Program-made: the position numbers and the translations under genes | Shown here: piece after piece, positions 12,442 to 29,541 of the stretch | Numbering within the stretch: the stretch's first letter is position 1 | Layout of the letters: every line of letters starts with the position of its first letter | NCBI RefSeq assembly: GCF_000463015.1 | Contig: NC_022247.1 | Coordinates: 930,001 to 994,000 of the forward strand | Length of the DNA stretch: 64,000 bases | Source: Variovorax paradoxus B4 | Lineage (GTDB): Bacteria > Pseudomonadota > Gammaproteobacteria > Burkholderiales > Burkholderiaceae_C | Direction: 5' to 3' | Notes under the pieces: generated by a model | The model's input: only the letters and a program-made list of their open reading frames with translations | Database searches by the model: none | Told to the model about the DNA's origin: nothing

Positions 12442-13233
12442 ATGTCGCAGATGCCTTTGCCGAAGTACCACCAGATCTACCTGGTCCTGCGTGAGCAGTT
12501 GCACGAAGGCCGTTTCGCGGAGGGGCTGCCCGGCGAGCTCGCGCTCATGGCGCAGTTCAACGTGGCGCGCGTCACGGTGCGGCGCGCGCTCGAGCAGCTG
12601 TCTTCCGAAGGCCTGATCGCGCGCAACCCGGGGCGCCGCACGCGCGCGCTGCCGCCCGTGCTCGCGGGCGAAGCGAACAACGGCAACAGCATGGAGCGCG
12701 CCAATCTGCGCGGCCTGCTCGAGAACCTGGTGACGATGGGCCTGCACACCTCGGTGAAAGTGATCGAGGTGGCCACCATCACGGCCTCCACCCAGGTGGC
12801 CGAGGCGCTGCAGCTGCAGCTGGGCGACCCGGTGCAGAAGGCGGTGCGCGTGCGCTCCACCAAGGAAGGTCCGCTCTCGCACATCACCACCTACGTGCCC
12901 GACACGATCGCGCGCCGCTTCGGCCGCCGCGAGCTGTCGAAGAAGCCCATCCTCGTGCTGCTCGAGGAATCGGGCGTCAAGGTGGGGCGTGCGCACCAGA
13001 CCATCTCCGCGCGCCTGGCCGACAACCTGATCGCGCAGCACCTCGACGTGTCGGTCGGCTCGGCCCTGCTTGCGGTGCGCCGCCTGATCTACGACGAGGA
13101 CGAGCGGCCCGTGCAGTGGCTGCACGGCCTCTACCGCCCCGACCGCTACACCTACGAAATGCAGCTCTCCCGCGTGGGCGGCATCGACGCGAAGGTGTGG
13201 GTCAGCAAAGACGTGTCAGCCAAGTTCAACTGA
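12442..13233 (+). CDS. HutC-subfamily GntR regulator (UTRA domain)
   Basis: A 263-residue regulator: winged helix in residues about 5-70 (YHQIYLVLREQLHEGRFAEG, FNVARVTVRRALEQLSSEGL), then a UTRA effector domain with SKKPILVLLEESGVKVGRA and LLAVRRLIYDEDERPVQWL. UTRA domains bind small metabolites, often an intermediate of the pathway controlled. It is the first gene of the long plus-strand operon, 17 nt before the ABC binding-protein gene, and is the natural local regulator of the whole cluster to 29.5 kb. Confidence 0.88.
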   Translation: MSQMPLPKYHQIYLVLREQLHEGRFAEGLPGELALMAQFNVARVTVRRALEQLSSEGLIARNPGRRTRALPPVLAGEANNGNSMERANLRGLLENLVTMGLHTSVKVIEVATITASTQVAEALQLQLGDPVQKAVRVRSTKEGPLSHITTYVPDTIARRFGRRELSKKPILVLLEESGVKVGRAHQTISARLADNLIAQHLDVSVGSALLAVRRLIYDEDERPVQWLHGLYRPDRYTYEMQLSRVGGIDAKVWVSKDVSAKFN

Positions 13234-13250
13234 AGAAAAAGGAAAGCCCC

Positions 13251-14456
13251 ATGCAGAACCGCCGCAGTTTCGTGTCGCAGTCCGCCGCCCTGGCCACCGC
13301 CGTCGCCTTCCCGCTCGTGGCCGGCGCGCAGCCCAAGACCGTCAAGGTCGGCGTGCTGCATCCGGTCACCGGGGCGCTGGCCTATTCGGGCCAGCAATGC
13401 CGCCTCGGCGCGCTGATGGCCATCGAAGACATCAACGCCGCCGGCGGCATCAAGGCGCTCGGCGGTGCGAAGCTCGAGGCCCTGCTGGGCGACGCGCAAT
13501 CGCAGCCGCAGGCCGGCGCGGCCGAGGTCGAGAAGATGAACGAGGCCGGCGTGTCCGCCATCGTGGGCGCCTACGCCTCGGCCATCTGCCTGGCGACCAC
13601 GCAGGCGGCGGCCAAGTACAACCTGCCGCACGTGGTCGACGTGGGCGTGGCCGACCAGATCGTCGAGCGCGGCCTGAAGAACACTTTCCGCTTCGGCCCC
13701 GGCTACAAGAAGTCGACCGAGGTGGCCATGGCCAACCTGCTGGTGCTCAACAAGGCCGCAGGCAACCCGGCCAAGACCGTGATGATCATTCACGAAGAGT
13801 CGCTGTTCGGCGCCGGCACCGCGCAGCTGCTCTCGCGCGAGCTGCCGGGCTACGGCTTCGAGGTGAAGGAGGTGGTGAAGCACGCCAACCCGACGCGCGA
13901 CTTCAACAACATCGTGCTGCGCATGAAGTCGATCAACCCGGACATCGTGATCCCGGCCAACTACTACAACGAATACGCGCTGCTGGTGCGCACCATGCAG
14001 CAGCAGAAGGTGGTGCCCAAGGCGATCTTCTCGGTGCTGGGCGGCGCCGCATCGAGCTACAAGTTCGTGAAGGAGTTCCCGGACGCGGCCAACGGCATCA
14101 TCGACTGCAACCACTGGTTCAACCCGAAGGACAAGCGCTCGCAGGAGCTGCGCAAGCGCGTGGAGGCCAAGGGCCAGTTCTTCAGCTACGAGGTCTTCAT
14201 GACCTACACCTCGATGTGGCTGCTGGCCGATGCGCTGGAACGCGCGAAGTCGGCCGGGCGCGCCGCGATCATCGATGCGCTGGAGAAGAGCACCTTCTCG
14301 AATCACATCATGCCGTACGGCCCCACGAAATTCGTCAATGGGCAGAACGAGGGGGCGCAGCCGCTGATGACTCAGGTGGTGAAGAACGACATCAAGGTGA
14401 TCATTCCGCGCGACTACCGCGAGGTCGATCCCGTGTTCCCGCTGCGCGCAGCCTGA
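13251..14456 (+). CDS. Liv-type ABC transporter periplasmic binding protein
   Basis: A 401-residue exported protein. MQNRRSFVSQSAALATAVAF leads a signal peptide ending near VAGAQP, possibly a Tat type because of NRRSFV. The mature part is a type-I periplasmic binding fold: VKVGVLHPVTGALAYSGQQ, GDAQSQPQAGAAEVEKM and IVGAYASAICLATTQAAAKYN. It delivers a ligand to the LivHMGF complex encoded directly downstream. Binding proteins of this group take branched-chain amino acids, amides, urea or aromatic acids; the HyuAB-containing operon argues against an ordinary amino acid. Confidence 0.88.
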   Translation: MQNRRSFVSQSAALATAVAFPLVAGAQPKTVKVGVLHPVTGALAYSGQQCRLGALMAIEDINAAGGIKALGGAKLEALLGDAQSQPQAGAAEVEKMNEAGVSAIVGAYASAICLATTQAAAKYNLPHVVDVGVADQIVERGLKNTFRFGPGYKKSTEVAMANLLVLNKAAGNPAKTVMIIHEESLFGAGTAQLLSRELPGYGFEVKEVVKHANPTRDFNNIVLRMKSINPDIVIPANYYNEYALLVRTMQQQKVVPKAIFSVLGGAASSYKFVKEFPDAANGIIDCNHWFNPKDKRSQELRKRVEAKGQFFSYEVFMTYTSMWLLADALERAKSAGRAAIIDALEKSTFSNHIMPYGPTKFVNGQNEGAQPLMTQVVKNDIKVIIPRDYREVDPVFPLRAA

Positions 14457-14469
14457 AACGGAAGGCGGG

Positions 14470-15342
14470 ATGTTCGATTTCGGCATTCTTTTCCCGTCGG
14501 TCCTGAACGGGCTGACGACGGGCGCGGTGTACGCACTGATCGCACTGGGGCTCACGCTGATCTACGGCGTCCTGCACATCATCAACTTCGCGCACGGCGC
14601 CAGCCTGATGCTGGCGCTGTATGCGGTGTACTTCCTCAAGGAGCGGCTGGGCATCGACCCGTACCTCGCACTGCCCATCGTCGTGCTCGGCATGTTCGCG
14701 CTCGGCTATGCGCTGCAGCGCAGCGTCATCAACCGCGCGGGCCACGGCAAGGACGAGAACATCCTGCTCGCCACGCTCGGCATCGCCATCGTCATGGAGA
14801 ACCTCGCGCTGCTGTTCTTCAAGTCGGACACGCGCAACATCGACACCGCCTATTCGCTCAGCACCGTCGCCATCGGCCCCGCGATGATCGCCGTGCCCAA
14901 GCTCGTGGCCTTCGCGGGGGCGCTGGTGGTGTCTGGCATCCTGTTCTGGATCATGGGCCGCACCGACCTCGGCCGCGCCATCCGCGCCGTCGCCAAGGAG
15001 AAGGAAGGCGCCAAGCTCATGGGCATCGACGTCGACCACGTCTACGCCATGAGCTTCGGCATCGGCCTGGCCTGTCTCGGCGCAGCCGCCTGCTTCCTGC
15101 TGCCGGCCTACTACGTCAACCCGCAGGTGGGCGGCGGCTTCGTGCTCGTGGCCTTCACCATCGTCGTGCTCGGCGGCATGGGCAGCTTCGTCGGCGCGCT
15201 CATCGGCGGCCTCCTGGTCGGCGTGGTCGAGTCGCTCGGCGGACTTTATCTTGGCGAGTCGCTGGGGCAGATCGGCATCTTCGCGATCTTCATCGGCGTG
15301 GTGCTCTTTCGTCCGCAAGGCATGTTCGGAGCCAAGGCATGA
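14470..15342 (+). CDS. livH: Liv-type ABC transporter permease (LivH family)
   Basis: A 290-residue permease with about eight membrane helices. Family features are LNGLTTGAVYALIALGLTLIYGVLHIINFAHG near the start (here read in short parts), ATLGIAIVMENLALLFF and VLGGMGSFVGALIGGLLVGVVES. It pairs with LivM to form the membrane channel. The start is 13 nt after the binding-protein gene and the stop overlaps livM by 4 nt. Confidence 0.9.
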   Translation: MFDFGILFPSVLNGLTTGAVYALIALGLTLIYGVLHIINFAHGASLMLALYAVYFLKERLGIDPYLALPIVVLGMFALGYALQRSVINRAGHGKDENILLATLGIAIVMENLALLFFKSDTRNIDTAYSLSTVAIGPAMIAVPKLVAFAGALVVSGILFWIMGRTDLGRAIRAVAKEKEGAKLMGIDVDHVYAMSFGIGLACLGAAACFLLPAYYVNPQVGGGFVLVAFTIVVLGGMGSFVGALIGGLLVGVVESLGGLYLGESLGQIGIFAIFIGVVLFRPQGMFGAKA

Positions 15343-16322
15343 GCGCGGGCAACAGGCAACTCGCCGGCATTGCGCTCTTTGCCGTGCTGGTCGGCTGCGT
15401 GCCGCTCGTCACGAAGTCGGGCGTGACGCTGAACTTCGTGATGATGGCGCTCTACGCCACGCTCATCGCGCAGGCCTGGAACATCCTCGGCGGCTTCGGC
15501 GGGCAGTTCTCGTTCGGGCATGCGCTGTTCTTCGGCACGGGCGCCTACGTCCAGGCCATCGCCCAGCTGCAGGGCGGCATCAACGCCTGGGTGGCGCTGC
15601 CGCTGGCCGTGGCCGGCGCTGCGCTGGTCGGTCTCTTCGTGGGCGCGCTCAGCTTCCGCTATGGCCTCAAGGGCTCCTACTTCGCGCTCGTCACGCTGGC
15701 CTTCGCGGAGGTGTTCCGCATCCTCGCGCTGTCGGTGAACTTCACGGGTGGCGGCGTCGGGCTGATGGTGCCGCTGCGCGAATCGGTGGCCAACCTGCAG
15801 TTCGCCTCGCGCGCCGGCTACCTGTGGGTGGTGCTGGCCATGGTGGTGCTGGCGCTGCTCGTGACCTGGTGGCTGCGCAACGGCCGCTTCGGTGCCTACC
15901 TCCAGGCCGTGCGCGACAACGAGGATGCGGCGCGCGCCGTGGGCGTGAACCCATTTCGCATCAAGCTCGCGGCCATCGGCCTCTCGGCCGCCTTCATGGG
16001 CGCGGCCGGTGCCTTCTACGTGCAGGTGTTCCAGTACATCGACGCCGGCATCGCCTACGGCCCGGCCGTGTCGGTCGAAGCCCTGGTGGCCGCCATCGTG
16101 GGCGGCATGGGCACGCTGTGGGGCCCGGTGCTGGGTGCGGTCGTGCTGCACCTGCTGTCGGACCTCACGCGCAACCTGTTCGGCGAGCTGCCGGGCATCA
16201 ACATGGTGATCTACGGCACGGTGCTGGTCGTGATCGTGATCTTCCTGCCGCGCGGCGTCGCCGGGCTGGGGCTGTCGGTGCGGCAGCTGTGGAATGCGAA
16301 GCAGGGAGGCCGCCATGACTGA
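15339..16322 (+). CDS. livM: Liv-type ABC transporter permease (LivM family)
   Basis: A 327-residue permease with about nine helices. It has QAWNILGGFGGQFSFGHALFFGTGAY, the G-Q-F/S-x-GHA motif typical of LivM, and VGGMGTLWGPVLGAVVL, the ATPase coupling and last-helix region. It completes the channel with LivH. The start overlaps the livH stop and its own stop overlaps livG by 8 nt. Confidence 0.9.
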   Translation: MSAGNRQLAGIALFAVLVGCVPLVTKSGVTLNFVMMALYATLIAQAWNILGGFGGQFSFGHALFFGTGAYVQAIAQLQGGINAWVALPLAVAGAALVGLFVGALSFRYGLKGSYFALVTLAFAEVFRILALSVNFTGGGVGLMVPLRESVANLQFASRAGYLWVVLAMVVLALLVTWWLRNGRFGAYLQAVRDNEDAARAVGVNPFRIKLAAIGLSAAFMGAAGAFYVQVFQYIDAGIAYGPAVSVEALVAAIVGGMGTLWGPVLGAVVLHLLSDLTRNLFGELPGINMVIYGTVLVVIVIFLPRGVAGLGLSVRQLWNAKQGGRHD

Positions 16323-17076
16323 GGCGCTGCTGGCCGTGGGCGGACTCTCGCGTTCCTTCGGCGGACTGAAGGCCGTGCAGGACGTCAGCCTGTCGGTGAA
16401 GGAGGGCAGCCTGAGCGCGCTGATCGGCCCCAACGGTGCCGGCAAGACCACGCTCTTCGCGCTGATGTCGGGCTTCCTCAAGCCCGACAGCGGCACCGTG
16501 CGCTTCGCGGGCCAGGACATCACGGGCCGCGAGCCGCACCGCAATGCGCTGCTCGGCATGACGCGCACCTTCCAGATCGTCAAGCCCTTTGCGGCGCAGA
16601 CGGTGCGCGAGAACATCGCGGTCGGTGCGCACCTGCACCTGCGCGGCCGCCGCGAGGCGCTGGCGCATGCCGAGGCCATCGCGCTGCGCGTGGGCCTCGT
16701 GCCCCAGCTCGACAAACCCGCGTCGGACCTCACGGTGGCCGGCCGCAAGCGGCTCGAACTGGCGCGTGCTCTGGCCACGCGCCCGCGCCTGCTGCTGCTC
16801 GACGAAGTGCTTGCCGGCCTCAACCCGCAGGAGATCGCCGAGATGATGCCGGTGGTGCGCGGCATTGCCGACGGCGGCGTCACGGTGCTGATGATCGAGC
16901 ACGTGATGCAGGCGGTGATGCACCTGGCCGAGCATGTGTGGGTGCTGGCGCAGGGCCAGCTGATTGCCGAAGGCAGCCCGGCGCAAGTGACCTCCGACGA
17001 CAAGGTCGTCGAGGCCTACCTGGGCCACGGCACCGCGGCGCGGCTGCGCAAGGCCGCATCGGGAGCCACGGCATGA
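16315..17076 (+). CDS. livG: Liv-type ABC transporter ATP-binding protein (LivG family)
   Basis: A 253-residue ATPase from the ATG at 16315. Walker A is GPNGAGKTT, the Q-loop region is MTRTFQIVKPF and Walker B is LLLLDEVLAGLNPQE, with the H-loop in MIEHVMQAVM. The signature is TVAGRKRLELARALA instead of LSGGQ, a variant common among LivG proteins of soil proteobacteria. It drives the LivHM channel together with LivF, whose start overlaps its stop. Confidence 0.9.
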   Translation: MTEALLAVGGLSRSFGGLKAVQDVSLSVKEGSLSALIGPNGAGKTTLFALMSGFLKPDSGTVRFAGQDITGREPHRNALLGMTRTFQIVKPFAAQTVRENIAVGAHLHLRGRREALAHAEAIALRVGLVPQLDKPASDLTVAGRKRLELARALATRPRLLLLDEVLAGLNPQEIAEMMPVVRGIADGGVTVLMIEHVMQAVMHLAEHVWVLAQGQLIAEGSPAQVTSDDKVVEAYLGHGTAARLRKAASGATA

Positions 17077-17783
17077 CCGCGCTTCTGGAGATTCAAGGCC
17101 TGCGCGGCGGCTACGGCCGCGTCGAGGTGCTGCGCGGCGTCGACCTGCAGGTGAACGCCGGCGAAATGGTCGCGCTGCTCGGCAGCAACGGCGCGGGCAA
17201 GTCCACCCTCAACAAGATGGTCTGCGGCCTGTGCCCCGCCTGGAGCGGCAGTGTGCGCTTCGACGGCAAGGACCTGAGTGGCGCGCACTACCGCGACGTG
17301 GTGAAGGCCGGCCTGATCCAGGTGCCCGAGGGCCGCAAGGTGTTTCCCAACCTCAGCGTGCTGGAGAACCTGGAGCTCGGCTCCTTCACGCGGGCGCGCG
17401 AGCGCCGCGCGGCCAACGTCGAGAAGATGTTCCACATCTTCCCGCGGCTCAGGGAACGCATGGCGCAGCACGCCGGCACCATGAGCGGCGGCGAGCAGCA
17501 GATGCTGGCCATCGCGCGCGGGCTCATGGCCGAGCCCGTGCTGCTGATCCTCGACGAGCCCTCGCTCGGGCTTTCGCCGCGGCTGGTGGAAGAGATGTTC
17601 ACGCTGATCCGCGAACTGCGCGACGGCGGCCTCGCGGTGCTGCTGGTGGAGCAGAACGTGGGCCAGTCGCTCGAGATCGCCGACCGCGCCTACGTGCTGG
17701 AGAACGGCAGCGTTCGCTTTTCGGGCCTGCCCGGCGAACTGCTCGGCAGCGACGAACTGCGGCGTGCCTACCTGGGGCTCTGA
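17073..17783 (+). CDS. livF: Liv-type ABC transporter ATP-binding protein (LivF family)
   Basis: A 236-residue ATPase starting at 17073 (MTALLEIQGLRGGYGRVEVL). Walker A is LLGSNGAGKST, followed by KAGLIQVPEGRKVFPNLSVLENLELG, which is diagnostic of LivF. The signature is MSGGEQQML, Walker B LLILDEPSLGLSP and the H-loop region LVEQNVGQSLEIADR. It is the second ATPase of the transporter; a 49-nt gap separates it from the first Bug receptor gene. Confidence 0.92.
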   Translation: MTALLEIQGLRGGYGRVEVLRGVDLQVNAGEMVALLGSNGAGKSTLNKMVCGLCPAWSGSVRFDGKDLSGAHYRDVVKAGLIQVPEGRKVFPNLSVLENLELGSFTRARERRAANVEKMFHIFPRLRERMAQHAGTMSGGEQQMLAIARGLMAEPVLLILDEPSLGLSPRLVEEMFTLIRELRDGGLAVLLVEQNVGQSLEIADRAYVLENGSVRFSGLPGELLGSDELRRAYLGL

Positions 17784-17832
17784 AGCCCGCATACCCATTG
17801 GGATACCCCCGATTTCCCCGGAGACAAGACAT

Positions 17833-18789
17833 ATGAAGAGACGCGACACCCTTCTTTTCCCACTGGCCGCCGCCTGGGCCGGCAGCGCCTTCGCGCAGAT
17901 CGGCAATGCGCCGGTGCGCATCCTCGTCGGTGCGCCCGCGGGCGGCTCGACCGACACGCTGGCCCGTTCGCTGGCCGTCAGCATGGGTCCGGCGCTCGGC
18001 CGCACCGTGATTGTCGAGAACCGGCCCGGCGCGGGCGGCAACATCGCGGCCGATGCCGTGGCCAAGGCCGCACCCGACGGCAACACGCTGCTGATGAGCT
18101 TCACCAGCCATGCGATCAATGCCACGCTCTACCCGGCGCTGCCTTTCGATCCGGTGAAGGATTTCACCGCGCTCACCTGCGTGGCGACGTCGCCCTCGAT
18201 TCTCGTCGCGCATCCGTCGGTGCCCGCGAAGGACGTGCGCGAACTCATCGCACTCGCCAAGGCGAAGCCGGGCCAGCTCAACTTCGCGATCGGCGCGGTG
18301 GGCTCGTCGCTGCACATGGCGGGCGAAGCCTTCAAGATGCAGTCGGGCGTCGACATCGTGAACATCCCCTACAAGGGCACCTCGCCCGCCGTGCAGGACG
18401 TGCTCGCCGGCCAGGTGCAGCTGATGTTCGCGGCCGTGGGCAACGTCAAGGCGCACATCCAGGCCGGCAAGCTCGGGGCGCTGGGCGTGACCACGGCCAG
18501 GCGGCTGCCGGCCTTTCCCGAGGTGCCGGCCATTGCCGAGGCGCTGCCGGGCTACGAGTCGAGCGCATGGTTCGGCCTCTTCGGCCCGGCCCGCATGCCG
18601 GCCGAGCGCGTGAAGCAGATCGGCGATGCCGCGCGCCATGCGCTGCAGCAGGCCGACATGCGCCAGCGCCTCGACACCGAGGGTGCGATCCCGGTGGGCA
18701 ATTCGTCCGAACAGTTCGCCGCCTTCGTGCAGAGCGAGATCACGCGCTGGGCCAAGGTCGTCAAGTTCTCGGGAGCCAAGCCGGAATGA
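17833..18789 (+). CDS. Bug/TctC-family periplasmic binding protein
   Basis: A 318-residue exported protein starting MKRRDTLLFPLAAAWAGSAFA. TctC features are RILVGAPAGGSTDTLARSLA, IVENRPGAGGNIAADAVAKAAPDGNTLL and VNIPYKGTSPAVQDVLAGQVQLMF. Such proteins bind carboxylates and normally feed TctAB permeases, but none is encoded here, as is common for the large Bug families of Burkholderiales. It may serve a distant permease or act as a sensor receptor. Its stop overlaps the LeuC-like gene by 4 nt, tying it to the catabolic genes. Confidence 0.9.
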   Translation: MKRRDTLLFPLAAAWAGSAFAQIGNAPVRILVGAPAGGSTDTLARSLAVSMGPALGRTVIVENRPGAGGNIAADAVAKAAPDGNTLLMSFTSHAINATLYPALPFDPVKDFTALTCVATSPSILVAHPSVPAKDVRELIALAKAKPGQLNFAIGAVGSSLHMAGEAFKMQSGVDIVNIPYKGTSPAVQDVLAGQVQLMFAAVGNVKAHIQAGKLGALGVTTARRLPAFPEVPAIAEALPGYESSAWFGLFGPARMPAERVKQIGDAARHALQQADMRQRLDTEGAIPVGNSSEQFAAFVQSEITRWAKVVKFSGAKPE

Positions 18790-20072
18790 CCTCCAACGCT
18801 CCAGACCGCGCGCCGGCGCAGACGCTGGCGCAGAAGCTCATCGCGCGCGCCAGCGGCCGCGCGCAGGTGGCGGTGGGCGAGATCGTGACCTGCGGCGTCG
18901 ACATGGCCATGTTCCACGACTCCTCCGGTCCGCGCCGGCTGCAGCCGATGCTCGAGGAGCTCGGCGCGCAGATCTGGGACCGCTCCCGCGTGGTGCTCGT
19001 CATGGACCACTACGTGCCCGAGCGTGACGACGACTCGCGCCGCATCGTGCGCATTGCGCGCGACTGGGCGCGCGACCAGCAGCTGCCACACGTGTACGAC
19101 AGCCAGGGCATCTGCCACGTGGTGGTGCCGCAGCACGGCCACATCCGCCCCGGCATGCTGTGCGTGGGTGGCGATTCGCATTCGCCCACGGGCGGCGCAT
19201 TCGGCGCCTACATGTTCGGCATCGGCAGCACCGAGATGCTGGGCGTGATGGTCACCGGCGAGATCTGGCTGCGCGTGCCGGAAACCATCCGCATGTGGTG
19301 GGACGGCGCGCTGCCCGCCGGCGTGACCGCCAAGGACATGATGCTTCACATGGTCGGCCGCTTCGGCATGAACGGCGGGCGCTACCAGGCGGTGGAGTTC
19401 GCCGGCCCGGCCGTCACCGCGCTGTCGATGCAGGAGCGCATGACGCTCTCCAACATGAGCGCCGAGCTGGGTGCGCAGGCCGGCCTGATCGCACCCGACG
19501 CCACCACCGCCGCGTTCCTCGCACAAGCCGGCGCCCCGCAGGTCGACATGGCACCCTGGTTCACCGACGAAGGCACCGTGCTCACGCACCACTGCTTCGA
19601 CGCCGCCACGCTCGAGCCCTACGTCGCCGCGCCGCACAGCCCGGCCAACGCGCACGGCGTGAGCCGGTACCTGGGCACGCATGTCGACGTGGCCTACATC
19701 GGCGCCTGCACCGGCGCCAAGCTCGACGACCTGCGCGCCGCGGCCCAGGTGCTGCGCGGCCACAAGGTGGCGGCGGGCATCCGCCTGATCGTGGCGCCGG
19801 CCAGCCTGCACGACCAGGAGCGGGCGCGCGAAGAGGGCGTGCTGCAGGTGCTGATGGACGCCGGCGCCGAACTCTTCCCGACCGCCTGCGGCGCCTGCTC
19901 GGGCTACGGCGATCCGATGGGCGACGACATCACGGTGATCTCGACCACGGCACGCAACTTCAAGGGCCGCATGGGCTCGCCGACCGCGCAGGTGTACCTG
20001 GGCTCGCCCTACACGGTGGCGGCGGCCGCACTGCGCGGCTGCGTGACCGACCCGCGCGAGGTGCTCGCATGA
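18786..20072 (+). CDS. Aconitase-superfamily hydratase, large subunit (LeuC/DmdA-like)
   Basis: A 428-residue protein of the split aconitase/isopropylmalate-isomerase type. GGDSHSPTGGAFG (Asp130-Ser131-His132) and the 4Fe-4S ligands Cys308 (IGACTGAKL) with Cys368 and Cys371 (TACGACSGY) are all present, so the cluster should assemble. It works with the small subunit encoded next, overlapping by 4 nt. The family adds or removes water at alkylated maleates or malates: isopropylmalate, homoaconitate, citraconate, dimethylmaleate. No leuB or leuA accompanies it, so leucine synthesis is unlikely; the lyase at 28678 makes an alkylmalate substrate plausible, by analogy with dimethylmaleate hydratase of nicotinate fermenters. 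Confidence 0.85.
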   Translation: MTSNAPDRAPAQTLAQKLIARASGRAQVAVGEIVTCGVDMAMFHDSSGPRRLQPMLEELGAQIWDRSRVVLVMDHYVPERDDDSRRIVRIARDWARDQQLPHVYDSQGICHVVVPQHGHIRPGMLCVGGDSHSPTGGAFGAYMFGIGSTEMLGVMVTGEIWLRVPETIRMWWDGALPAGVTAKDMMLHMVGRFGMNGGRYQAVEFAGPAVTALSMQERMTLSNMSAELGAQAGLIAPDATTAAFLAQAGAPQVDMAPWFTDEGTVLTHHCFDAATLEPYVAAPHSPANAHGVSRYLGTHVDVAYIGACTGAKLDDLRAAAQVLRGHKVAAGIRLIVAPASLHDQERAREEGVLQVLMDAGAELFPTACGACSGYGDPMGDDITVISTTARNFKGRMGSPTAQVYLGSPYTVAAAALRGCVTDPREVLA

Positions 20073-21947: not shown

Positions 21948-22916
21948 ATGAAACTCCTGCGCCATCTCGCGAGCACGCTCCTCGTCTGCCTGCCGCTGGT
22001 CGCCGCCGCGCAGGCGGGCGACTTTCCGAACAAGGCGATCCGCATCGTCGTGCCGTTCCCGCCGGGCGGCGCCACCGATGCGGCGGCGCGGCTGGTCGCC
22101 GTGAAGATGGGCGAGCACTGGGGCCAGCCGGTGGTGGTCGACAACCGCGCGGGCGCGGGCGGCAACGTCGGCTCCGACCTCGTCGCCAAGGCGCCGGCCG
22201 ACGGCTACACGCTGGTGATGGGCGTGACCGGCTCGCATGCGATCAACACCTCGCTCTACAGCAAGATGCCCTACGACCCGGTGGCCGACTTCGTCGCCAT
22301 CAGCCAGGTGGCGGTGGTGCCCAACGTGCTGGTGGTGCATCCCTCGGTGCCCGCGAAGAACCTGGCCGAGCTCGTGGCGCTCGCGAAGAAGGAGCCCGGC
22401 AAGCTCAACTACGCCTCGCTCGGCAACGGCACGGCCGCGCACCTGGGCATGGAAATGCTCAAGTCCGAGGCCGGCGTCGACATCGCGCACGTGCCCTACA
22501 AGGGCAGCGCGCCGGCGGTGTCGGACCTGCTCGCAGGGCAGGTGCAGATGATGGTCGACGGCCTGCCTTCGGCGCTGCCGCACGTCAAGGCCGGCAAGCT
22601 GCGCGCCATCGCGCTCACCAGCCTGCGCCGCGCGCCGTCGCTGCCCGACTTGCCGACCATCGCAGAGACCTACCCGGGCTTCTACGCCGATGCATGGTCG
22701 GGCCTGTTCGCGCCCAGGGGCACGCCGCAGCCCGTGGTGGACAAGCTCTCGGCCGAGGTGCAGCGCATCCTGAAGCTGCCCGACGTGCGCGAGAAGCTCA
22801 CGGCGCTGGGCGCCGAGCCCGTGGGCTCCACCCAGGCGGAATTCGCCGCGCACGTGAAGCGCGAGATCGACAAATGGGCCAAGGTCGTCAAGACCAGCGG
22901 CGCGAAAGTGGACTGA
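21948..22916 (+). CDS. Bug/TctC-family periplasmic binding protein
   Basis: A 322-residue exported protein with signal MKLLRHLASTLLVCLPLVAAA. It shows IRIVVPFPPGGATDAAARLVA, VVDNRAGAGGNVGSDLVAKAPADGYTL and AHVPYKGSAPAVSDLLAGQ, the defining Bug-protein segments. This is the second such receptor in the operon; the two differ clearly and are not a recent duplication. No TctAB permease is present. The gene sits 30 nt after the PrpD gene and 2 nt before hyuB. Confidence 0.9.
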   Translation: MKLLRHLASTLLVCLPLVAAAQAGDFPNKAIRIVVPFPPGGATDAAARLVAVKMGEHWGQPVVVDNRAGAGGNVGSDLVAKAPADGYTLVMGVTGSHAINTSLYSKMPYDPVADFVAISQVAVVPNVLVVHPSVPAKNLAELVALAKKEPGKLNYASLGNGTAAHLGMEMLKSEAGVDIAHVPYKGSAPAVSDLLAGQVQMMVDGLPSALPHVKAGKLRAIALTSLRRAPSLPDLPTIAETYPGFYADAWSGLFAPRGTPQPVVDKLSAEVQRILKLPDVREKLTALGAEPVGSTQAEFAAHVKREIDKWAKVVKTSGAKVD

Positions 22917-22918
22917 AC

Positions 22919-24607
22919 ATGAACGACACCCTCGACCCCGTCACGCTCGCCGTGCTGCGCGGCCGCCTCGAACAGGTGGCCGACGAGATGGACGCGACGC
23001 TCTACCGCAGCGCGTTCAATCCCATCATTGCCGAGGCGCACGACGCCTGCCACGGCCTGTACGACGCCACGACCGGTGACACGCTGGTGCAGGGCAAGTC
23101 GGGCCTGCCGGTGTTCGTGGGCGCCATGGCCTTCGCGGTGCGCGCCACCGCCAAGGCGGCCACGCCGCGCGGCGGCATGAAGGAAGGCGACATCTGGATC
23201 AGCAACGACGCCTACGACGGCGGCACGCACGCCAACGACTTCAAGCTGGTCAAGCCCTTCTTCCGCAATGGCAGGCTCTACTGCTACATGGCCTCGGCCG
23301 CGCATTGGCACGACGTGGGCGGCGCGGTGCCCGGCAACTACAACCCCGCGGCCACCGAGTGCTGGCAGGAAGCGGTGCAGATTCCGCCCGTGCGCATCGT
23401 GCAGGGCGGCGTGCTCGATGCCGACGTGCTCGCCATCCTGCAGGCCAACACGCGCCTGCCCGACAGCCTCTGGGGCGACCTCAACGGCCAGCTCGCCGCG
23501 CTGGAGCTCGGTGCGAAGCGCCTGCACGGCCTGCTCGACGAATACGGCGACGACCTGGTGCTGAATGCACTCGGTGAGCTGCGCGGCCGCGCGCTGCGCC
23601 TCATGCGCTCGCACATCGCCTCGCTGCCCGACGGCCGCTACAGCTTCGAGGACGTGCTCGACAACGACGGCATCGTCAACCGGCCGCTCACCATCGCGCT
23701 CGACATGACGGTGGCCGGCGACCGGCTCTCGCTCGACTTCTCGCGCACCTCGCCGCAATGCGCCGGCCCGGTGAACATCTCGCGCGCCACGGCGGTCGCA
23801 GCCTGCTACGTCGCGCTCAAGCACCTGTTCCCCGATGTGCCCGCGAACGCCGGCGTGCTCGACGCGGTCGACTTCGTCATTCCCGACAAGCTGGTGATCA
23901 GCGCCGAGCGCCCGCGCCCGGTCGGCGGCTACACCGAGACCATCCTGCGCATGATCGACGTGATCTTCAGCGCCGCCGCGCAGGCCGACCCCACGCGCGC
24001 CGTGGCGCAGGCCTACGGCACCATCAACGCGCTGTCGATCGCGGGCCACCGCAGCGACAAGGGCCGCGAAGGCCAGCGCTGGGTGATGTTCAGCTTCTTC
24101 GGCGGCGGGCACGGCGGCCATTCGGGCGGCGACGGCCTGTCGCACGGCAACGCGCCGATCTCGACCGCGACGATCCCGCCGCTCGAAATCCTCGAGGCCG
24201 CGTACCCCGTGCGCTTCACCGAGTGGTCGCTGCGCGCCGATTCGGGCGGCGACGGGCGGCATCGCGGCGGTCTGGGCGCCGTCTACGAGATCGAACTGCT
24301 CGAGAAGGACGCCGAGGTGTTCGTCTTCGGCGAGCGCGGCACCTCGCCGCCCAAGGGCATCGCGGGCGGCGGTTCGGGCGCCCTCAACGTGTTCCGCTAC
24401 GAGAACGCGGGCGAGTGGCACACGCCGCCCATGGTGTCGAAGATGCGCGGCATCCAGCTCGCGCGCGGCGAGCGCGTGCGGCTCGAAACGCCCGGCGGCG
24501 GCGGCTGGGGCCGTGCCGGCGAGCGTCCCGCTTCGCAGCGCGAAGCCGATGCCGCGATGGGCTACGTCACGGCCGCTACCGGCAGCAAGCAGAAAGCATC
24601 CGAATGA
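22919..24607 (+). CDS. Hydantoinase B / oxoprolinase B-family subunit
   Basis: A 562-residue HyuB-type subunit: LDPVTLAVLRGRLEQVADEM at the N-terminus, DACHGLYDATTGDTLVQG, the conserved EGDIWISNDAYDGGTHANDF region with HWHDVGGAVPGNY, and a glycine-rich C-terminus (LETPGGGGWGR). HyuB pairs with HyuA to open cyclic amides in an ATP-dependent way (N-methylhydantoin, 5-oxoproline), and related complexes carboxylate acetone or acetophenone. The absence of a third (gamma) subunit argues against acetone carboxylase. The start is 2 nt after the Bug gene and the stop overlaps hyuA by 4 nt. Confidence 0.88.
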   Translation: MNDTLDPVTLAVLRGRLEQVADEMDATLYRSAFNPIIAEAHDACHGLYDATTGDTLVQGKSGLPVFVGAMAFAVRATAKAATPRGGMKEGDIWISNDAYDGGTHANDFKLVKPFFRNGRLYCYMASAAHWHDVGGAVPGNYNPAATECWQEAVQIPPVRIVQGGVLDADVLAILQANTRLPDSLWGDLNGQLAALELGAKRLHGLLDEYGDDLVLNALGELRGRALRLMRSHIASLPDGRYSFEDVLDNDGIVNRPLTIALDMTVAGDRLSLDFSRTSPQCAGPVNISRATAVAACYVALKHLFPDVPANAGVLDAVDFVIPDKLVISAERPRPVGGYTETILRMIDVIFSAAAQADPTRAVAQAYGTINALSIAGHRSDKGREGQRWVMFSFFGGGHGGHSGGDGLSHGNAPISTATIPPLEILEAAYPVRFTEWSLRADSGGDGRHRGGLGAVYEIELLEKDAEVFVFGERGTSPPKGIAGGGSGALNVFRYENAGEWHTPPMVSKMRGIQLARGERVRLETPGGGGWGRAGERPASQREADAAMGYVTAATGSKQKASE

Positions 24608-26658
24608 GCTCCACAAGCAAATCCCTGGTCGTCGGCGTCGATGTCGGCGGCACCTTCACCGACCTGTTCGTGCTCGACGAGGCCCATGGCAGCGCACGCA
24701 TCGTCAAGGTGCCCTCCACGCGCGGCGAGGAAGCGCGCGGCTTCATGAACGGCGTGGCGCGCGTGGCCGATTCGGCCGCGGCCATCGCCACCATCGTGCA
24801 CGGCACCACCGTCGGCACCAACGCGCTGCTCGAACGCAAGGTGGCGCGCACCGGCATCATCACCACGCGCGGCTTTCGCGACGTGCTCGAGATGCGCCGC
24901 CGTGACCGGCCCCAGACCTGGGGCCTGCGCGGCAGCTTCGTGCCCGTGGTGCCGCGCGACCTGCGCCGCGAAGTCGACGAGCGCGTGCTGGCCGACGGCA
25001 CGCTGCACACGCCGGTCGACCTGGACCAGGTGCGCGCCGAGGCGCGCTCGCTGCTCGAAGCGGGCTGCGAAGCGGTGTGCGTGTTCTTCATCAACACCTA
25101 CGCCAACCCAGAGAACGAACGGCTCGCCGCGGCGGCCGTGCGCGAACTCTGGCCCAACCCGCACGTCACCTCGGCCAGCGAGGTGCTGCCCGAGATCCGC
25201 GAGTTCGAGCGCTGCTCGACGGCCACGCTCAATGCGGCGCTGCAGCCGGTGGTCGGCAGCTACCTCGGCCGCCTCGAAGCCGACCTGCGCGCGCAGGGCT
25301 TCGCGGGCGAGCTGCTGGTGGTGCAGAGCAACGGCGGCGTGATGTCGCGCCAGACCGCGAGCGACCTGCCGGTGCGCACCGCGCTCTCGGGCCCCGCGGC
25401 CGGCGTGATCGCCTGCGCAGCCATTGCACGCGCGGCGGGTTTCCCGAACGCGATCACCGGCGACATGGGCGGCACCTCGTTCGACGTGTCGCTGGTGGCC
25501 AACGGCGAGGCCGCGCTGGCCGCGCAGACCGCCATCGAGTTCGGCATGGTGATCCGCTCGCCGATGATCCAGATCGAGACCATCGGCGCCGGTGGCGGCT
25601 CCATCGCTTCCGTGGATGCGAGCGGCATGCTGCAGGTCGGCCCCGAGTCCGCCGGCAGCGTGCCGGGACCGGCGTGCTACGGGCGCGGCAACATGCGCCC
25701 GACCGTGACGGATGCGAACGTGCTGCTCGGCCGCATCGCCGCCGATCGTCCGCTGGGCGGCGGGCTGCTTGCGGCGTTGGACGCAGAGAAGTCGCGACAG
25801 GCCATCGAAGAACACGTTGCACGCCCGCTCGGTCTCGACGTGCATGCGGCTGCGGAAGCCATTCTCACGGTGGCCAATGCGCGCATGGCGGGCGCGATCC
25901 GCCTCGTGTCGATCGAACGCGGGCACGATCCGCGCCGCTTCGCCTACATGCCCTTCGGCGGCGGCGGTGCGCTGCATGTGTGCGCGATGATGCGCGAGGT
26001 GGGCGTGGCCACCGGCATCGTGCCGCGCTATCCCGGCGTGACCTCCGCCCTCGGCTGCGTGATCGCCGACATGCGCCACGACGCGGTGCAGACCCTCAAC
26101 AGGCCGCTCGCCGAACTCGACGTGGCCGACCTGCAGCGCCGCATCGACGAACTCTCGGCGGCTTGCCAGCAGCGCCTCGACTCCTCGGGCGTGCGCTTCG
26201 ACGACGTGCGCGAGGTGATCGCGCTCGACATGCTCTATGCCGGCCAGACGCACACGCTGCCCGTGGTGCTGGCCGATGCGGGCAAGGCGCCGATCACGGC
26301 CGCATCGATCCGCGCCGCGTTCGAGGCCGCCTACACGGCCGCCTTCGGCCGCGTGCTCGACGGCATCCCCATCCGCGTGATGAACCTGCGCTATGCGCGC
26401 ATCGGCGTGCGGCCCAAGTTCGACCTGAAGGTGCTGGCACCCGAAGGGCAGGGCAGCACCGCGCCGCTGGGCACGCAGCGCGTGTTCCACCACGGCCAGT
26501 GGCACGAGGCTGTGCGCTACGCACGGCTCGAGCTGCCGGTGGCCGCGCGCATCGAAGGGCCTGCGATCCTCGAGCAGGCCGACACCACCGTGTGGCTCGA
26601 ACCCGGCTTCCACGCCGAGGTCGACGCGCACGGCAACCTGCTGGTGAGGCTGTCATGA
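24604..26658 (+). CDS. Hydantoinase A / oxoprolinase A-family subunit
   Basis: A 684-residue HyuA-type ATPase subunit. GVDVGGTFTDLFVLD (residues 11-25) is the phosphate-binding loop of the ASKHA fold; HGTTVGTNALLERKVARTG and GDMGGTSFDVSL are further nucleotide-site motifs, and SIERGHDPRRFAYMPFGGGG is typical of the family. With HyuB it forms an ATP-dependent amidohydrolase of lactam or imide rings, or a related carboxylase. The substrate is not readable, but the overlap with the next gene shows that it is part of the same pathway. Confidence 0.88.
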   Translation: MSSTSKSLVVGVDVGGTFTDLFVLDEAHGSARIVKVPSTRGEEARGFMNGVARVADSAAAIATIVHGTTVGTNALLERKVARTGIITTRGFRDVLEMRRRDRPQTWGLRGSFVPVVPRDLRREVDERVLADGTLHTPVDLDQVRAEARSLLEAGCEAVCVFFINTYANPENERLAAAAVRELWPNPHVTSASEVLPEIREFERCSTATLNAALQPVVGSYLGRLEADLRAQGFAGELLVVQSNGGVMSRQTASDLPVRTALSGPAAGVIACAAIARAAGFPNAITGDMGGTSFDVSLVANGEAALAAQTAIEFGMVIRSPMIQIETIGAGGGSIASVDASGMLQVGPESAGSVPGPACYGRGNMRPTVTDANVLLGRIAADRPLGGGLLAALDAEKSRQAIEEHVARPLGLDVHAAAEAILTVANARMAGAIRLVSIERGHDPRRFAYMPFGGGGALHVCAMMREVGVATGIVPRYPGVTSALGCVIADMRHDAVQTLNRPLAELDVADLQRRIDELSAACQQRLDSSGVRFDDVREVIALDMLYAGQTHTLPVVLADAGKAPITAASIRAAFEAAYTAAFGRVLDGIPIRVMNLRYARIGVRPKFDLKVLAPEGQGSTAPLGTQRVFHHGQWHEAVRYARLELPVAARIEGPAILEQADTTVWLEPGFHAEVDAHGNLLVRLS

Positions 26659-27269
26659 GCGCGGAAACGAAGCCTGTCGCGGCGAAGACGGCGCTGGTCA
26701 TCATCGACCTGCAGAACGACTTTCTCGATGCCAAGGGCGCCTATGCGCGCGGCGGCGACACCAACCCGCCCGCGCTGCTGCTGCCGGCGCGCGTGGCCGG
26801 GGTGGCGCGCGCGCTCAAGGCCGCGGGCGGCCTCGTGGTCGCCAGCCAATTCACGCTGTGGCCCGATGCGGCCGGCGAGCCGATGGTGTCGCCGCACCTC
26901 AAGGCGCTGCGCCCCTACCTGAAGAAGGGCGACTTCGCGCCCGGCAGCTGGGGCCAGGCCAACGTCGATGCGCTGGCGGGGCTTGTCGACGTGACGGTCA
27001 GCAAGGTTGCCTATTCGGCCTTCTTCAACACCCAGCTCGACTGGGTGCTGCGCCGTGCGGGCATCGACACCGTGGCCGTGTGCGGCATCGTGACCAACGG
27101 CGGCGTGGCCAGCACCGTGCGCGATGCCCACATGCGCGACTACCGCACGCTGGTGCTGGCCGACGGCTGCGCGGCCTTCGGCGAAGAGCGCCACCAGACC
27201 TCGCTGGCCGACATGCGCAACGTGGCCGAGGTGACCGACTGCGCGGCCTTCATCGCGTCGCTCGCATGA
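26655..27269 (+). CDS. Isochorismatase-fold hydrolase lacking the usual catalytic Cys
   Basis: A 204-residue protein of the isochorismatase superfamily. Asp18 in LVIIDLQNDF and Lys117 in TVSKVAYSAF are in place. The nucleophile position, normally TN-x-CV in amidases such as RutB and nicotinamidase, reads TNGGVAST, so Gly150 replaces Cys; the nearest Cys (143) is seven residues earlier. True isochorismatases (EntB, PhzD) also have Gly there and hydrolyse a vinyl ether, not an amide. The name cysteine hydrolase would therefore be misleading. The start overlaps hyuA and the stop overlaps the flavoprotein gene by 4 nt each. Confidence 0.82.
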   Translation: MSAETKPVAAKTALVIIDLQNDFLDAKGAYARGGDTNPPALLLPARVAGVARALKAAGGLVVASQFTLWPDAAGEPMVSPHLKALRPYLKKGDFAPGSWGQANVDALAGLVDVTVSKVAYSAFFNTQLDWVLRRAGIDTVAVCGIVTNGGVASTVRDAHMRDYRTLVLADGCAAFGEERHQTSLADMRNVAEVTDCAAFIASLA

Positions 27270-28681
27270 CGGCAAGCCCTTTGCGCCTCATCCGCCGCGC
27301 GGCATCGGTCGAGGCCGAGGTGCACGTGCCGGTGGCGATCGTCGGCGGCGGCGCCTGCGGGCTCACGGCCGCGTTGATGCTCAGCGACGCGGGCGTGGAC
27401 TGCGCAGTGCTCGAGCGCGACGCGCTGCCCAGCGGCTCGACTGCGCTGTCCTCGGGCTTCATCCCCGCACCCGGCACCCGCACGCAGCGGGCGCATGGCG
27501 TGCAGGGCGACAGCGCCGAGCGCTTCGCCGCCGACATCCAGGCCAAGGCCCACGGCCGTGCGGCGCCTGCGCTGGTCGAGGCCTATGCGGCTTCCATCGG
27601 CCCGGCGCTCGATGCGCTGCAGGAACGGCATGGGCTGCAGTGGATGCTGCTCGACGGCTTTCTCTATCCGGGGCACAGCGTGCATCGCATGCATTCGCTG
27701 CCGCAGAGAACAGGCGCGTCGCTGATGGCTGCCTTGCAGGCCGCCGTCGAGGCGGCGGGCATTCCCGTGCTGACACAAGCGTTGGTCGACACGCTGGTGC
27801 TCGATGCCGAAGACCGCGTGATCGGCGTCGATTACTTGCGCCCCGACGGCAGCAGCGAAACGCTGGGCTGCGACGCACTGCTGCTCGCCTGCAACGGCTT
27901 CGGCGGAAATTCGGAAATGGTGCGCACGCTGCTGCCCGAGATGGCCGAAGCCACCTTCGGCGGCCACGCCGGCAACGACGGCAGCGCGATCCTCTGGGGC
28001 GAAGCGCTGGGCGCACGCCTGCGCGACCTCGGCGGCTACCAGGGCCACGGCTCGTGGGTCACGCCGCAAGGCGCGCTGATGTCGTGGGCCGTGATGATGG
28101 AAGGCGGCGTGCAGCTCGACTGCGAGGGCCGGCGCTTTCACGACGAGACGCAGGGCTATTCGGAAGCTGCCGTGCACGTGCTCGCGCAACCGGGCGGCAT
28201 TGCGTGGAACGTGTTCGACGCGCCACTGCTTGCACTGGCGCGGGGCTTTCCCGACTTCTGCGAGGCCGAAGCGGCAGGTGCGTTGCGCCGCTGCGAATCG
28301 GTGGCTGCGCTGGCGGACTGCATCGGCTGCGAGCCTTCCGTGCTGCAAGGCACGCTCGACGCCATGCGCGCCGGCACGCCACCGCCCGATGGCCGCGTGT
28401 TCGCACGCGCACTCGAAGCGCCGTACTTCGCAGTGAAGGTCACGGGTGCGTTGTTCCACACCCAAGGCGGCCTCGACACCGCGCCCGACATGCGTGTGCT
28501 GCGGCACGACGGCACGCCCTTCGCCAACCTGCTCGCCGCCGGTGGCGCGGCCGGCGGCGTCTCGGGCGATGCGGTGTGGGGCTATCTTTCCGGCAACGGC
28601 CTGCTGAGCGCCGTGGCCGGCGGCTACATCGCGGCGCGCACGGCCGCTGCACTGATCCATTCGACGAAAGCGTCCGCATGA
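27266..28681 (+). CDS. FAD-dependent oxidoreductase, fumarate-reductase flavoprotein type
   Basis: A 471-residue flavoprotein with the dinucleotide motif VAIVGGGACGLTAAL (Gly27-Gly32), VLERDALPSGSTALSSGF and a C-terminal GAAGGVSGDAVWGYLSGNGLLSAV FAD segment (in two parts). This arrangement is that of the fumarate reductase/succinate dehydrogenase flavoprotein and 3-ketosteroid dehydrogenase superfamily, including tricarballylate dehydrogenase TcuA. Such enzymes make or reduce a carbon-carbon double bond next to a carboxylate or ketone. In this operon it could turn an alkylsuccinate-type compound into the unsaturated acid that the LeuCD-like enzyme hydrates; this is inference. Confidence 0.8.
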   Translation: MTASPLRLIRRAASVEAEVHVPVAIVGGGACGLTAALMLSDAGVDCAVLERDALPSGSTALSSGFIPAPGTRTQRAHGVQGDSAERFAADIQAKAHGRAAPALVEAYAASIGPALDALQERHGLQWMLLDGFLYPGHSVHRMHSLPQRTGASLMAALQAAVEAAGIPVLTQALVDTLVLDAEDRVIGVDYLRPDGSSETLGCDALLLACNGFGGNSEMVRTLLPEMAEATFGGHAGNDGSAILWGEALGARLRDLGGYQGHGSWVTPQGALMSWAVMMEGGVQLDCEGRRFHDETQGYSEAAVHVLAQPGGIAWNVFDAPLLALARGFPDFCEAEAAGALRRCESVAALADCIGCEPSVLQGTLDAMRAGTPPPDGRVFARALEAPYFAVKVTGALFHTQGGLDTAPDMRVLRHDGTPFANLLAAGGAAGGVSGDAVWGYLSGNGLLSAVAGGYIAARTAAALIHSTKASA

Positions 28682-29541
28682 CGTATCCCTCCTTCAAGAC
28701 ACGGCTCGCGCGCAACGACATCGTGCTCGCGCCCGGCGTGTACGACGCGCTCAGCGCCCTCGTGGCCGAGCAGGCCGGCTTCGAGGCGCTGTACCTCTCG
28801 GGCGCCTCCATCGCCTACACGCGCCTGGGCCGCTCCGACGTCGGCCTCACCACCTTCACCGAGGTGGCCGACACGCTGGCGCGCATCACCGAACGCGTGA
28901 GCCTGCCGGTGATCGTCGATGCCGACACCGGCTTCGGCAACGCGCTCAACACGCAGCGCACCGTGCGCGGCTTCGAGCGCGCGGGCGCGGCGATGGTGCA
29001 GATCGAGGACCAGACCTTTCCCAAGCGCTGCGGCCATCTCGACGGCAAGGCCGTGGTGCCCGAGCGCGAGATGGTCGGCAAGCTCAAGGCCGCGCTGGAC
29101 GCGCGCACCTCGAGCGACACGCTGATCCTCGCGCGTACCGATGCGGTGGCGGTCGAAGGCCTGGAGGCCGCGCTCGACCGCGCCGAGGCCTACCTCGCCT
29201 GCGGCGTGGACGCGCTTTTCATCGAGGCGCTGCGCTCGCCCGAGCAGATGGATGCCGCCTGCCAACGCTTCGGCGACCGCGTGCCGCTGCTCGCCAACAT
29301 GGTCGAAGGCGGCAAGACGCCGATCCAGGATGCGGATGCGCTGCAGGCCCATGGCTTTCGCATCGCGATCTTTCCGGGCGGCACCGCGCGCGCCGTGGTG
29401 CACACGCTGCAGGGCTACTACGCGAGCCTGCACCGGCACCGCAGCACGCAGCCCTGGCGGCCGCAGATGCTGGACTTCGACGCGCTCAACGAGGTGATCG
29501 GCACGCCGGAGCTGATGCGCACCGGCCAGAAGTACGACTGA
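28678..29541 (+). CDS. Isocitrate lyase/PEP mutase-family lyase
   Basis: A 287-residue protein of the family that includes 2-methylisocitrate lyase, 2,3-dimethylmalate lyase, oxaloacetate decarboxylase and PEP mutase. It has LYLSGASIAYTRLGR, the metal-binding DADTGFGN (Asp81, Asp83), QIEDQTFPKRCGH with the lyase-type catalytic Cys118, and ARTDA. The KRCGH sequence marks the C-C bond lyases and argues against PEP mutase. It is the last gene of the operon and would cleave an alkylmalate to pyruvate or glyoxylate plus a short acid. It converges with a LysR gene after 21 nt. Confidence 0.83.
   Translation: MTYPSFKTRLARNDIVLAPGVYDALSALVAEQAGFEALYLSGASIAYTRLGRSDVGLTTFTEVADTLARITERVSLPVIVDADTGFGNALNTQRTVRGFERAGAAMVQIEDQTFPKRCGHLDGKAVVPEREMVGKLKAALDARTSSDTLILARTDAVAVEGLEAALDRAEAYLACGVDALFIEALRSPEQMDAACQRFGDRVPLLANMVEGGKTPIQDADALQAHGFRIAIFPGGTARAVVHTLQGYYASLHRHRSTQPWRPQMLDFDALNEVIGTPELMRTGQKYD

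Follow-up and report, generated by a model that had tools for sequence, protein, structure and literature searches.

The window analysed here, a stretch of 64,000 nucleotides (NC_022247.1, positions 930,001 to 994,000) from the 7.15 Mb, two-contig genome of Variovorax paradoxus B4, carries on its plus strand sixteen genes (12442–29541) running from the start of a HutC-type GntR/UTRA regulator to the stop of a C–C lyase with a KRCGH motif. The operon is a catabolic system built from known enzyme families, yet the names of its genes, which evoke leucine synthesis, hydantoin use and a cysteine hydrolase, mislead, and the question it raises is which compound it degrades and by what steps. In order, the genes encode HutC, a periplasmic substrate-binding protein (SBP), LivH, LivM, LivG, LivF, Bug receptor 1, LeuC, LeuD, PrpD, Bug receptor 2, HyuB, HyuA, IsoC, a FAD protein and the lyase (PEPM). 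We propose that the compound which the operon takes up and breaks down is a small cyclic imide with a five-membered ring, either a substituted maleimide or a substituted succinimide, and give this reading a probability of about one half. No description of this gene set was found in the open-access literature with narrow search terms, which is weak evidence of absence.

Conservation of the gene set

LeuC relatives were sought in overlapping samples of the family, order and phylum, the window's own genome being counted in each, and at the thresholds used were present in 33 of 299, 15 of 300 and 11 of 398 genomes respectively. All listed matches outside the window's genome (54 loci, L080–L133) were scored for their neighbours, and in many the adjoining genes and their order are preserved. 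HyuBA adjoins LeuCD in 13 of the 54, and 12 of those 13 have IsoC, FAD protein, lyase and LivH as well; in the remaining one, L124, LeuCD and HyuBA are combined with a different ATP-binding cassette (ABC) system, and its contig carries IsoC (57%) as well as a FAD relative (39%) at a distance of about 27 kb. The set HutC–SBP–LivHMGF–LeuC–LeuD–PEPM–HyuB–HyuA–IsoC–FAD recurs in L129 and L130, which have only the phylum in common with the window and whose LeuC belongs to the window's subfamily (62% identity). Judged by this synteny, the operon genes are one conserved unit, as the first-pass annotation of the window had supposed when it linked hyuBA with leuCD-like and KRCGH lyase genes; the prpD-like gene that it had placed in the same set is dispensable, being found in only 2 of the 13 Hyu loci and in none of ten loci of a second type described below.

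A protein search also recovered HyuB relatives at 58% identity or more in 30 plasmid records, from Variovorax, Paraburkholderia, Azospirillum, Roseomonas, Tistrella, Sulfitobacter, Allorhizobium and Neorhizobium. Nine of these loci were read: HutC, IsoC and a LeuC-type gene occur in every one, the lyase in eight, the FAD gene in seven and the Liv system in six, a TRAP transporter taking the place of Liv in the two Sulfitobacter loci. With a different LeuCD subfamily, the unit is found again in Azospirillum, Roseomonas, Neorhizobium and Sulfitobacter; the Tistrella locus lacks both the FAD gene and the lyase and carries genes for an acyl-CoA dehydrogenase and a CoA-transferase. The catabolic unit thus occurs in both Alpha- and Betaproteobacteria, among them several plant-associated or marine bacteria.

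Apart from the 13 Hyu loci and the ten of the second type, the 54 loci are mostly reduced. Twelve hold LeuCD and lyase without FAD gene or ring opener, three (L086, L087, L110) add the FAD gene to these, and 13 have LeuC, mostly with LeuD, with no ring opener, FAD gene or lyase nearby, some being cut by contig ends; L119, L114 and L115 fall outside all groups. The last two are second, distant Bug–LeuC–LeuD–lyase loci (LeuC 42–43%, lyase 35%) in genomes G130 and G221, and perhaps represent a parallel module for another diacid.

Accessory genes can be told apart from the core by the same comparison. PrpD and the Bug receptors, counted among the pathway parts in the first-pass annotation, are by their distribution accessory: the PrpD-family gene and Bug receptor 2 are missing even from the same-genus locus L081, and Bug receptor 1 is missing from L091, L106, L117, L129 and L130 and lies next to LeuCD in a number of reduced modules that have no ring opener. 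The nearest named relatives of the PrpD-family gene are from Variovorax, NCBIfam holds no model for its product, and the sole solved relative found is the distant IDS-epimerase. Of the 23 loci with a ring opener, 19 also have LivH (contig ends truncate three of the four that do not), compared to 3 of the 31 loci that have no ring opener (Fisher p = 8e-8, relatedness ignored).

Alternating ring openers

HyuB residues D42, H104, D107 and H129 align with D41, H99, D102 and H124 of CapB (PMC8453981; here and below, sources with PMC numbers stand for excerpts of the articles), and these Asp-His-Asp-His metal ligands are kept in all nine plasmid loci. The nearest solved chains to HyuA are annotated as N-methylhydantoinase and 5-oxoprolinase, and both subunits fall far short of the equivalog models for caprolactamase (279 and 524 of the 1000 bits required).

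In ten of the 54 loci LeuD is followed by AllB, an allantoinase/dihydropyrimidinase-like cyclic amidohydrolase (gene of about 1.5 kb). It lies between LeuD and the FAD gene in nine (with five genes inserted in L089), L102 having no FAD gene; nine of the ten have FAD gene and lyase, and none has IsoC. HyuBA and AllB never occur together (0 of 54 loci). Genome-wide searches that included a positive control found no HyuB match above 43% identity in the ten AllB genomes; in a search without such a control, AllB was not found in 19 genomes, five of which were searched again with controls (all four controls matched, all five test genomes were empty). Residues H70, H72, K162, H222, H284 and D357, assigned to the site by motif, are kept in all ten AllB loci; four His, one carbamylated Lys and one Asp are the binuclear-site set of cyclic amidohydrolases (PMC9863593), a family in which a dihydropyrimidinase hydrolyses the imide phthalimide (PMC4437985).

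The alternation of two unrelated ring openers in one operon position fits an imide substrate. The exchange of HyuBA and IsoC for a metal-dependent cyclic amidohydrolase restricts the chemistry to that of cyclic amides or cyclic imides, and a few compounds would suffice to test for the substrate.

A quick LeuC tree of 60 rows, 13 of them without a variant label, requires by parsimony at least three changes between Hyu and AllB, while its starred branches force one for AllB and four for Hyu against all other groups; repeated swapping is thus suggested by the sequences. A single origin of each variant was considered and set aside on the count of at least three changes, the starred branches forcing only one for AllB. 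Left out of the tree were L119, L120 and L080 (same contigs as L045, L046 and L038), L039 (hits in pieces), L036 and L079 (cut by contig ends), and the distant L112, L114 and L115.

Polysaccharide-deacetylase-type genes adjoin LeuCD in L126–L128, three genomes of one genus, and lie about 7 kb from LeuD in L045. In L126 (5248–9061 and 9166–11329; also in L127 and L128) the divergent genes beside LeuCD encode an acyl-CoA dehydrogenase, two PuuE-like polysaccharide-deacetylase proteins and a protein of the isochorismatase fold in which the Cys is retained, the families having been scanned in L126 only. The PuuE-like genes of L126–L128 are possibly a third ring-opening variant. In a fungal pathway a PuuE-related imidase opens an imide, from which the amide is then removed (PMC9304392). 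The genes inserted between LeuD and AllB in L089 (6440–10381) are, by reading, thiolase-like, OB-fold-like, two CoA-transferase-like genes and a Bug receptor, suggesting an extra CoA-dependent step in that genome.

The hydratase and the lyase

LeuC meets the cut-off of subfamily NF001614 and misses the leuC equivalog TIGR00170 (226.7 vs 560.25 bits), its cluster Cys motifs GACTGAK and CGAC being kept in nearly all aligned rows. LeuD meets the LeuD/DmdB subfamily model TIGR02087 and has a near-invariant Lys or Gln in the loop (APGHAMKHG in the window) that we take to set specificity in relatives. The LeuC of eight alphaproteobacterial plasmid loci is only 35–39% identical to that of the window, the figure being 35–36% in five loci whose LeuC was compared and belongs to a different subfamily; those of Roseomonas, Neorhizobium, Tistrella and Sulfitobacter share 64–70% identity with their counterpart in Azospirillum oryzae, the one locus scanned, in which LeuC and LeuD exceed the leuC and leuD cut-offs, so that the hydratase position there is filled by another subfamily. 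Exchange of enzymes at both the ring-opening and the hydratase positions supports the roles of opening, hydrating and cleaving.

The lyase scores under the prpB equivalog TIGR02317 (295.4 vs 354.4 bits). It keeps the KRCGH motif with the catalytic Cys, which reads KKCGH in one plasmid locus and KRCAQ in the distant L114 and L115, and its F, I and P align with F186, L234 and P236 of Escherichia coli methylisocitrate lyase. Genome G017, whose AllB–LeuCD–Liv locus L102 has no adjoining lyase, encodes a 72% identical lyase orthologue elsewhere (L134, 8424–9278). Hydratase and lyase families of this kind work on 1,4-diacid skeletons, and the simplest cyclic amide that would leave such a diacid once the ring is opened and the nitrogen lost is therefore a five-membered imide, with substituted maleimides the simplest candidate class.

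Nitrogen removal and the flavoprotein

The isochorismatase-fold protein IsoC, a candidate for the amidase that removes nitrogen, has Gly in place of the catalytic Cys in 24 of 24 aligned rows (22 distinct contigs), in all nine plasmid loci and in L135; D18, K117 and G150 are invariant in 12 of 12. The position was fixed by alignment to RutB, YecD and 3kl2, which have there Ser (presumably a mutant chain), Gly and Cys, respectively, and with Asp and Lys kept and Gly for Cys IsoC fits the Cys-less YecD-like group. A genome-wide search with positive control found no IsoC orthologue in the ten AllB genomes (0 of 10; one 35% match). We reject IsoC both as a classical Cys amidase (of the RutB, N-carbamoylsarcosine amidase or maleamate amidase type), given the Gly in every orthologue read, and as a step needed by every version of the pathway, since it was not found with AllB. 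The best 120 of 7207 IsoC homologues were Variovorax proteins with generic names and no function. The operon has no other amidase gene. 2,3-Dialkylmaleamic acids hydrolyse by themselves, the neighbouring carboxyl helping loss of the amine, and for such compounds the missing amidase Cys would be no obstacle.

A fumarate-reductase-like step on a dicarboxylate had been expected of the FAD protein and is not supported by the alignment: Tyr occupies both positions of FccA R402 and R544, which we take to be the substrate arginines of fumarate reductase and succinate dehydrogenase flavoproteins. The Tyr pair is found in all covering alignment rows and in the seven plasmid loci with the gene (7/7), a 38% relative in L135 differing at the first position. 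An AlphaFold model built on a seven-row alignment (mean pLDDT 77.7, falling under 50 in several active-site loops) ties between urocanate reductase, flavocytochrome c, cyclohexanone dehydrogenase and ketosteroid dehydrogenases, so the fold cannot choose between an acid and a ring as substrate. L102 and L140 have no FAD gene beside ring opener, LeuCD and Liv; a FAD orthologue was not found genome-wide in G017 (L102), and L140 was read over the fetched stretch. Ring opening and hydration may therefore proceed without a desaturase, as for an already unsaturated imide.

Proposed pathway

From the observed genes and residues, the conservation of the set and the enzyme swaps, we infer the following reactions and substrate. 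The Liv ABC system would import the imide, and HyuBA, whose metal ligands are present, would open the ring by the mechanism of its family, spending ATP and yielding a half-amide. Nitrogen would then leave as ammonia, either by hydrolysis that needs no enzyme or with IsoC as a catalyst that has no thiol nucleophile, and for a saturated substrate only, the FAD protein would make the C=C bond. By their family mechanisms, LeuCD would add water to an alkylmaleate to give an alkylmalate, a branched four-carbon diacid, which the lyase would split into a 2-oxo acid, most likely pyruvate, and a carboxylic acid. HutC is probably a local repressor, and PrpD and the Bug receptors might broaden stereochemistry or uptake. 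The scheme of opening, hydration and cleavage first sketched from the sequence thus holds in outline, through the enzyme swaps at the ring-opening and hydratase positions, and needs correction at the amidase, desaturase and accessory steps.

A possible source of substituted maleimides is tetrapyrrole decay, which is coherent and fits. Each tetrapyrrole-derived maleimide ring carries a methyl group, and this shared group would give pyruvate at the lyase step. We raise only as a tentative and rather doubtful extension that the operon is a bacterial route for chlorophyll and haem pyrrole carbon, in which methylethylmaleimide and hematinic acid imide would be opened, deaminated, hydrated and cleaved to pyruvate and butyrate or glutarate. 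Leaves have been found to contain hematinic acid, and senescent leaves and lake sediments are reported sources of maleimides, although the study in question detected no maleimides itself (PMC7318184). If alkylmaleimides are substrates, the operon offers a genetic handle on the return of chlorophyll and haem pyrrole rings to central metabolism.

Several observations weigh against an imide pathway of this form. Acceptance of imides by HyuAB would be by analogy with its opening of lactams and hydantoins. The absence of the amidase Cys from IsoC, and of IsoC from AllB genomes, leaves nitrogen removal unexplained by genes, and the FAD protein lacks the arginines of dicarboxylate enzymes. The set is broken in L102 and L124 (no FAD gene or lyase nearby), L140 (no FAD gene) and L137 (no FAD gene or lyase), and for this reason strict nesting of modules was rejected as proof of pathway order. 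Conversely, L086, L087 and L110 have the FAD gene and no ring opener, in genomes without AllB whose best HyuB matches were none, 34% and 32% (G433, which has a Hyu locus, being the positive control for that search). The stand-alone LeuCD–lyase modules imply that this half also serves diacids not derived from imides. Finally, Neorhizobium L144 has after the FAD gene (18317–19743) two genes of the Asp/Glu/hydantoin-racemase family, which could be maleate isomerase-like or hydantoin racemase-like and would suit a hydantoin too.

Alternative explanations

The racemase-family genes are one of three points that favour an ordinary hydantoin, N-methylhydantoin or 5-oxoproline route for HyuBA and IsoC, with LeuCD and lyase forming a separate diacid route under the same regulator; the others are that N-methylhydantoinase is the nearest solved HyuA relative and that AllB is allantoinase/hydantoinase-like. 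However, the N-carbamoylsarcosine-type amidase Cys is missing from every IsoC orthologue read, each of the nine plasmid loci examined (of 30 records) has a LeuC-type gene no more than 10 kb from HyuB, and a hydratase and lyase would be useless for N-carbamoyl amino acids. This explanation is improbable. As the principal reading, use of creatinine/N-methylhydantoin or 5-oxoproline was rejected for the missing Cys and the idle hydratase and lyase. We also think it unlikely that a six-membered imide or pyridone-derived ring is converted to a tricarboxylate (e.g. citrazinate to aconitate), with LeuCD acting as aconitase and the lyase as isocitrate or methylisocitrate lyase. LeuCD and the lyase do resemble the late methylcitrate cycle, a PrpD-family gene is present and the near-invariant Lys or Gln of the LeuD loop could bind an extra carboxylate, but aconitate should already be served by the housekeeping enzymes of the tricarboxylic acid cycle, the lyase residues look methylisocitrate-lyase-like and not isocitrate-lyase-like, and the citrazinate route had no match in a narrow search of the open-access literature.

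Isochorismatases that hydrolyse enol ethers have Asp and Lys with Gly for Cys, and IsoC shares this arrangement with them and with YecD, as would be expected if an enelactam ring were opened to an enamine and then, by IsoC or water, to an oxo acid, in the manner of the enamidase of nicotinate fermentation, ahead of the hydratase and lyase steps. That fermentation opens its ring hydrolytically and deaminates at the same time (PMC9304392). The operon has no mutase, isomerase or hydroxymethylglutarate genes that would link such an oxo acid to an alkylmaleate, however, and we consider this route unlikely. The reduced loci described above, 12 with LeuCD and lyase and 13 with LeuC (some cut by contig ends), would instead be accounted for by modular assembly, the parts acting on different diacids and cyclic amides with no single linear pathway; there is a small chance that this is so, but the gene set is kept across two proteobacterial classes, its genes overlap and its ring openers are mutually exclusive.

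Comparison with known systems

CapAB and N-methylhydantoinase belong to the same family of two-part ATP-dependent ring openers with an Asp-His-Asp-His site (PMC8453981), whereas the operon falls below the caprolactamase cut-offs and no carbamoylase or amino-acid steps follow. In imide metabolism by imidase or dihydropyrimidinase, and by HxnM–HxnN of Aspergillus nidulans, an imide is likewise converted to a half-amide and then de-amidated (PMC9304392, PMC4437985); the window differs in using ATP-dependent HyuBA followed by hydratase and lyase, with no isochorismatase-fold Cys amidase.

Nicotinate fermentation by Eubacterium barkeri passes from a LeuCD-type hydratase to a PEPM-superfamily lyase, and the window's LeuD fits the LeuD/DmdB model. 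Unlike that pathway, the operon has no hydroxylase, mutase or methylitaconate isomerase and its ring is opened by HyuBA; the comparison with DmdAB and Dml is one of family models. The methylcitrate cycle (PrpD, aconitase, PrpB) similarly combines a dehydratase-family protein, a hydratase and a lyase with the same kind of cleavage, but the operon has no methylcitrate synthase, its lyase scores under the prpB cut-off and PrpD occurs in few Hyu loci.

Organisation of the operon in the window

Successive genes overlap by 4–14 nt at 10 of the 15 junctions and are separated by gaps of 2–49 nt at the remaining five (in operon order 17, 13, -4, -8, -4, 49, -4, -4, -14, 30, 2, -4, -4, -4 and -4 nt), in agreement with the first-pass annotation, whose family names Pfam also confirms for the ten proteins that were scanned; the other six, namely both Liv permeases, both ATPases and both Bug proteins, were named by reading (Table 1). 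In NCBIfam, LeuC and LeuD reach subfamily cut-offs and not one of the eight catabolic proteins reaches that of an equivalog; the names leucine synthesis, prpB, RutB and caprolactamase are therefore inapplicable as they stand.

Table 1. Genes of the Variovorax paradoxus B4 operon, with window coordinates and basis of assignment.
Feature	Coordinates	Strand	Basis
HutC-type GntR/UTRA regulator	12442..13233	+	PF00392, PF07702 above cut-off; below all listed NCBIfam cut-offs
Liv-type periplasmic substrate-binding protein (SBP)	13251..14456	+	PF13458
LivH-like permease	14470..15342	+	ORF, conserved in loci, family by reading
LivM-like permease	15339..16322	+	ORF, conserved in loci, family by reading
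LivG-like ATPase	16315..17076	+	ORF, conserved in loci, family by reading
LivF-like ATPase	17073..17783	+	ORF, conserved in loci, family by reading
Bug-type receptor 1	17833..18789	+	Family by reading
LeuC-like [4Fe-4S] hydro-lyase large subunit	18786..20072	+	PF00330, NF001614 subfamily
LeuD-like small subunit	20069..20593	+	Pfam; TIGR02087 LeuD/DmdB subfamily; loop APGHAMKHG
MmgE/PrpD-family protein (epimerase/dehydratase type), accessory	20580..21917	+	PF03972, PF19305
Bug-type receptor 2, accessory	21948..22916	+	Family by reading; often adjoins PrpD-family gene
HyuB, metal-site subunit, ATP-dependent cyclic amidase family	22919..24607	+	PF02538
HyuA, ATP-binding subunit	24604..26658	+	PF05378, PF01968, PF19278
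IsoC, isochorismatase-fold protein	26655..27269	+	Pfam; D18, K117, G150 at catalytic Cys position
Putative FAD desaturase, flavocytochrome c / ketosteroid dehydrogenase superfamily	27266..28681	+	PF00890
PEPM/ICL-superfamily C–C lyase, KRCGH motif	28678..29541	+	PF13714
ORF, open reading frame.

Past the operon end lies a LysR-like gene on the opposite strand (29563–30447), and upstream (4540–12316) is a seemingly separate sugar-acid unit comprising, by reading, a dehydratase-like gene, a TRAP transporter, a GntR regulator, two SDR genes and a FAH-family-like gene. Two of the plasmid loci carry a gene for a protein with a tautomerase and a SnoaL/DUF4440-like domain, beside HyuB in Sulfitobacter (L142, 10438–11004) and between IsoC and the FAD gene in Neorhizobium (L144, 16427–16918, DUF4440 match below cut-off). 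The Neorhizobium locus has in addition an old-yellow-enzyme family protein that matches the NamA and, more weakly, the N-ethylmaleimide reductase models, both below cut-off.

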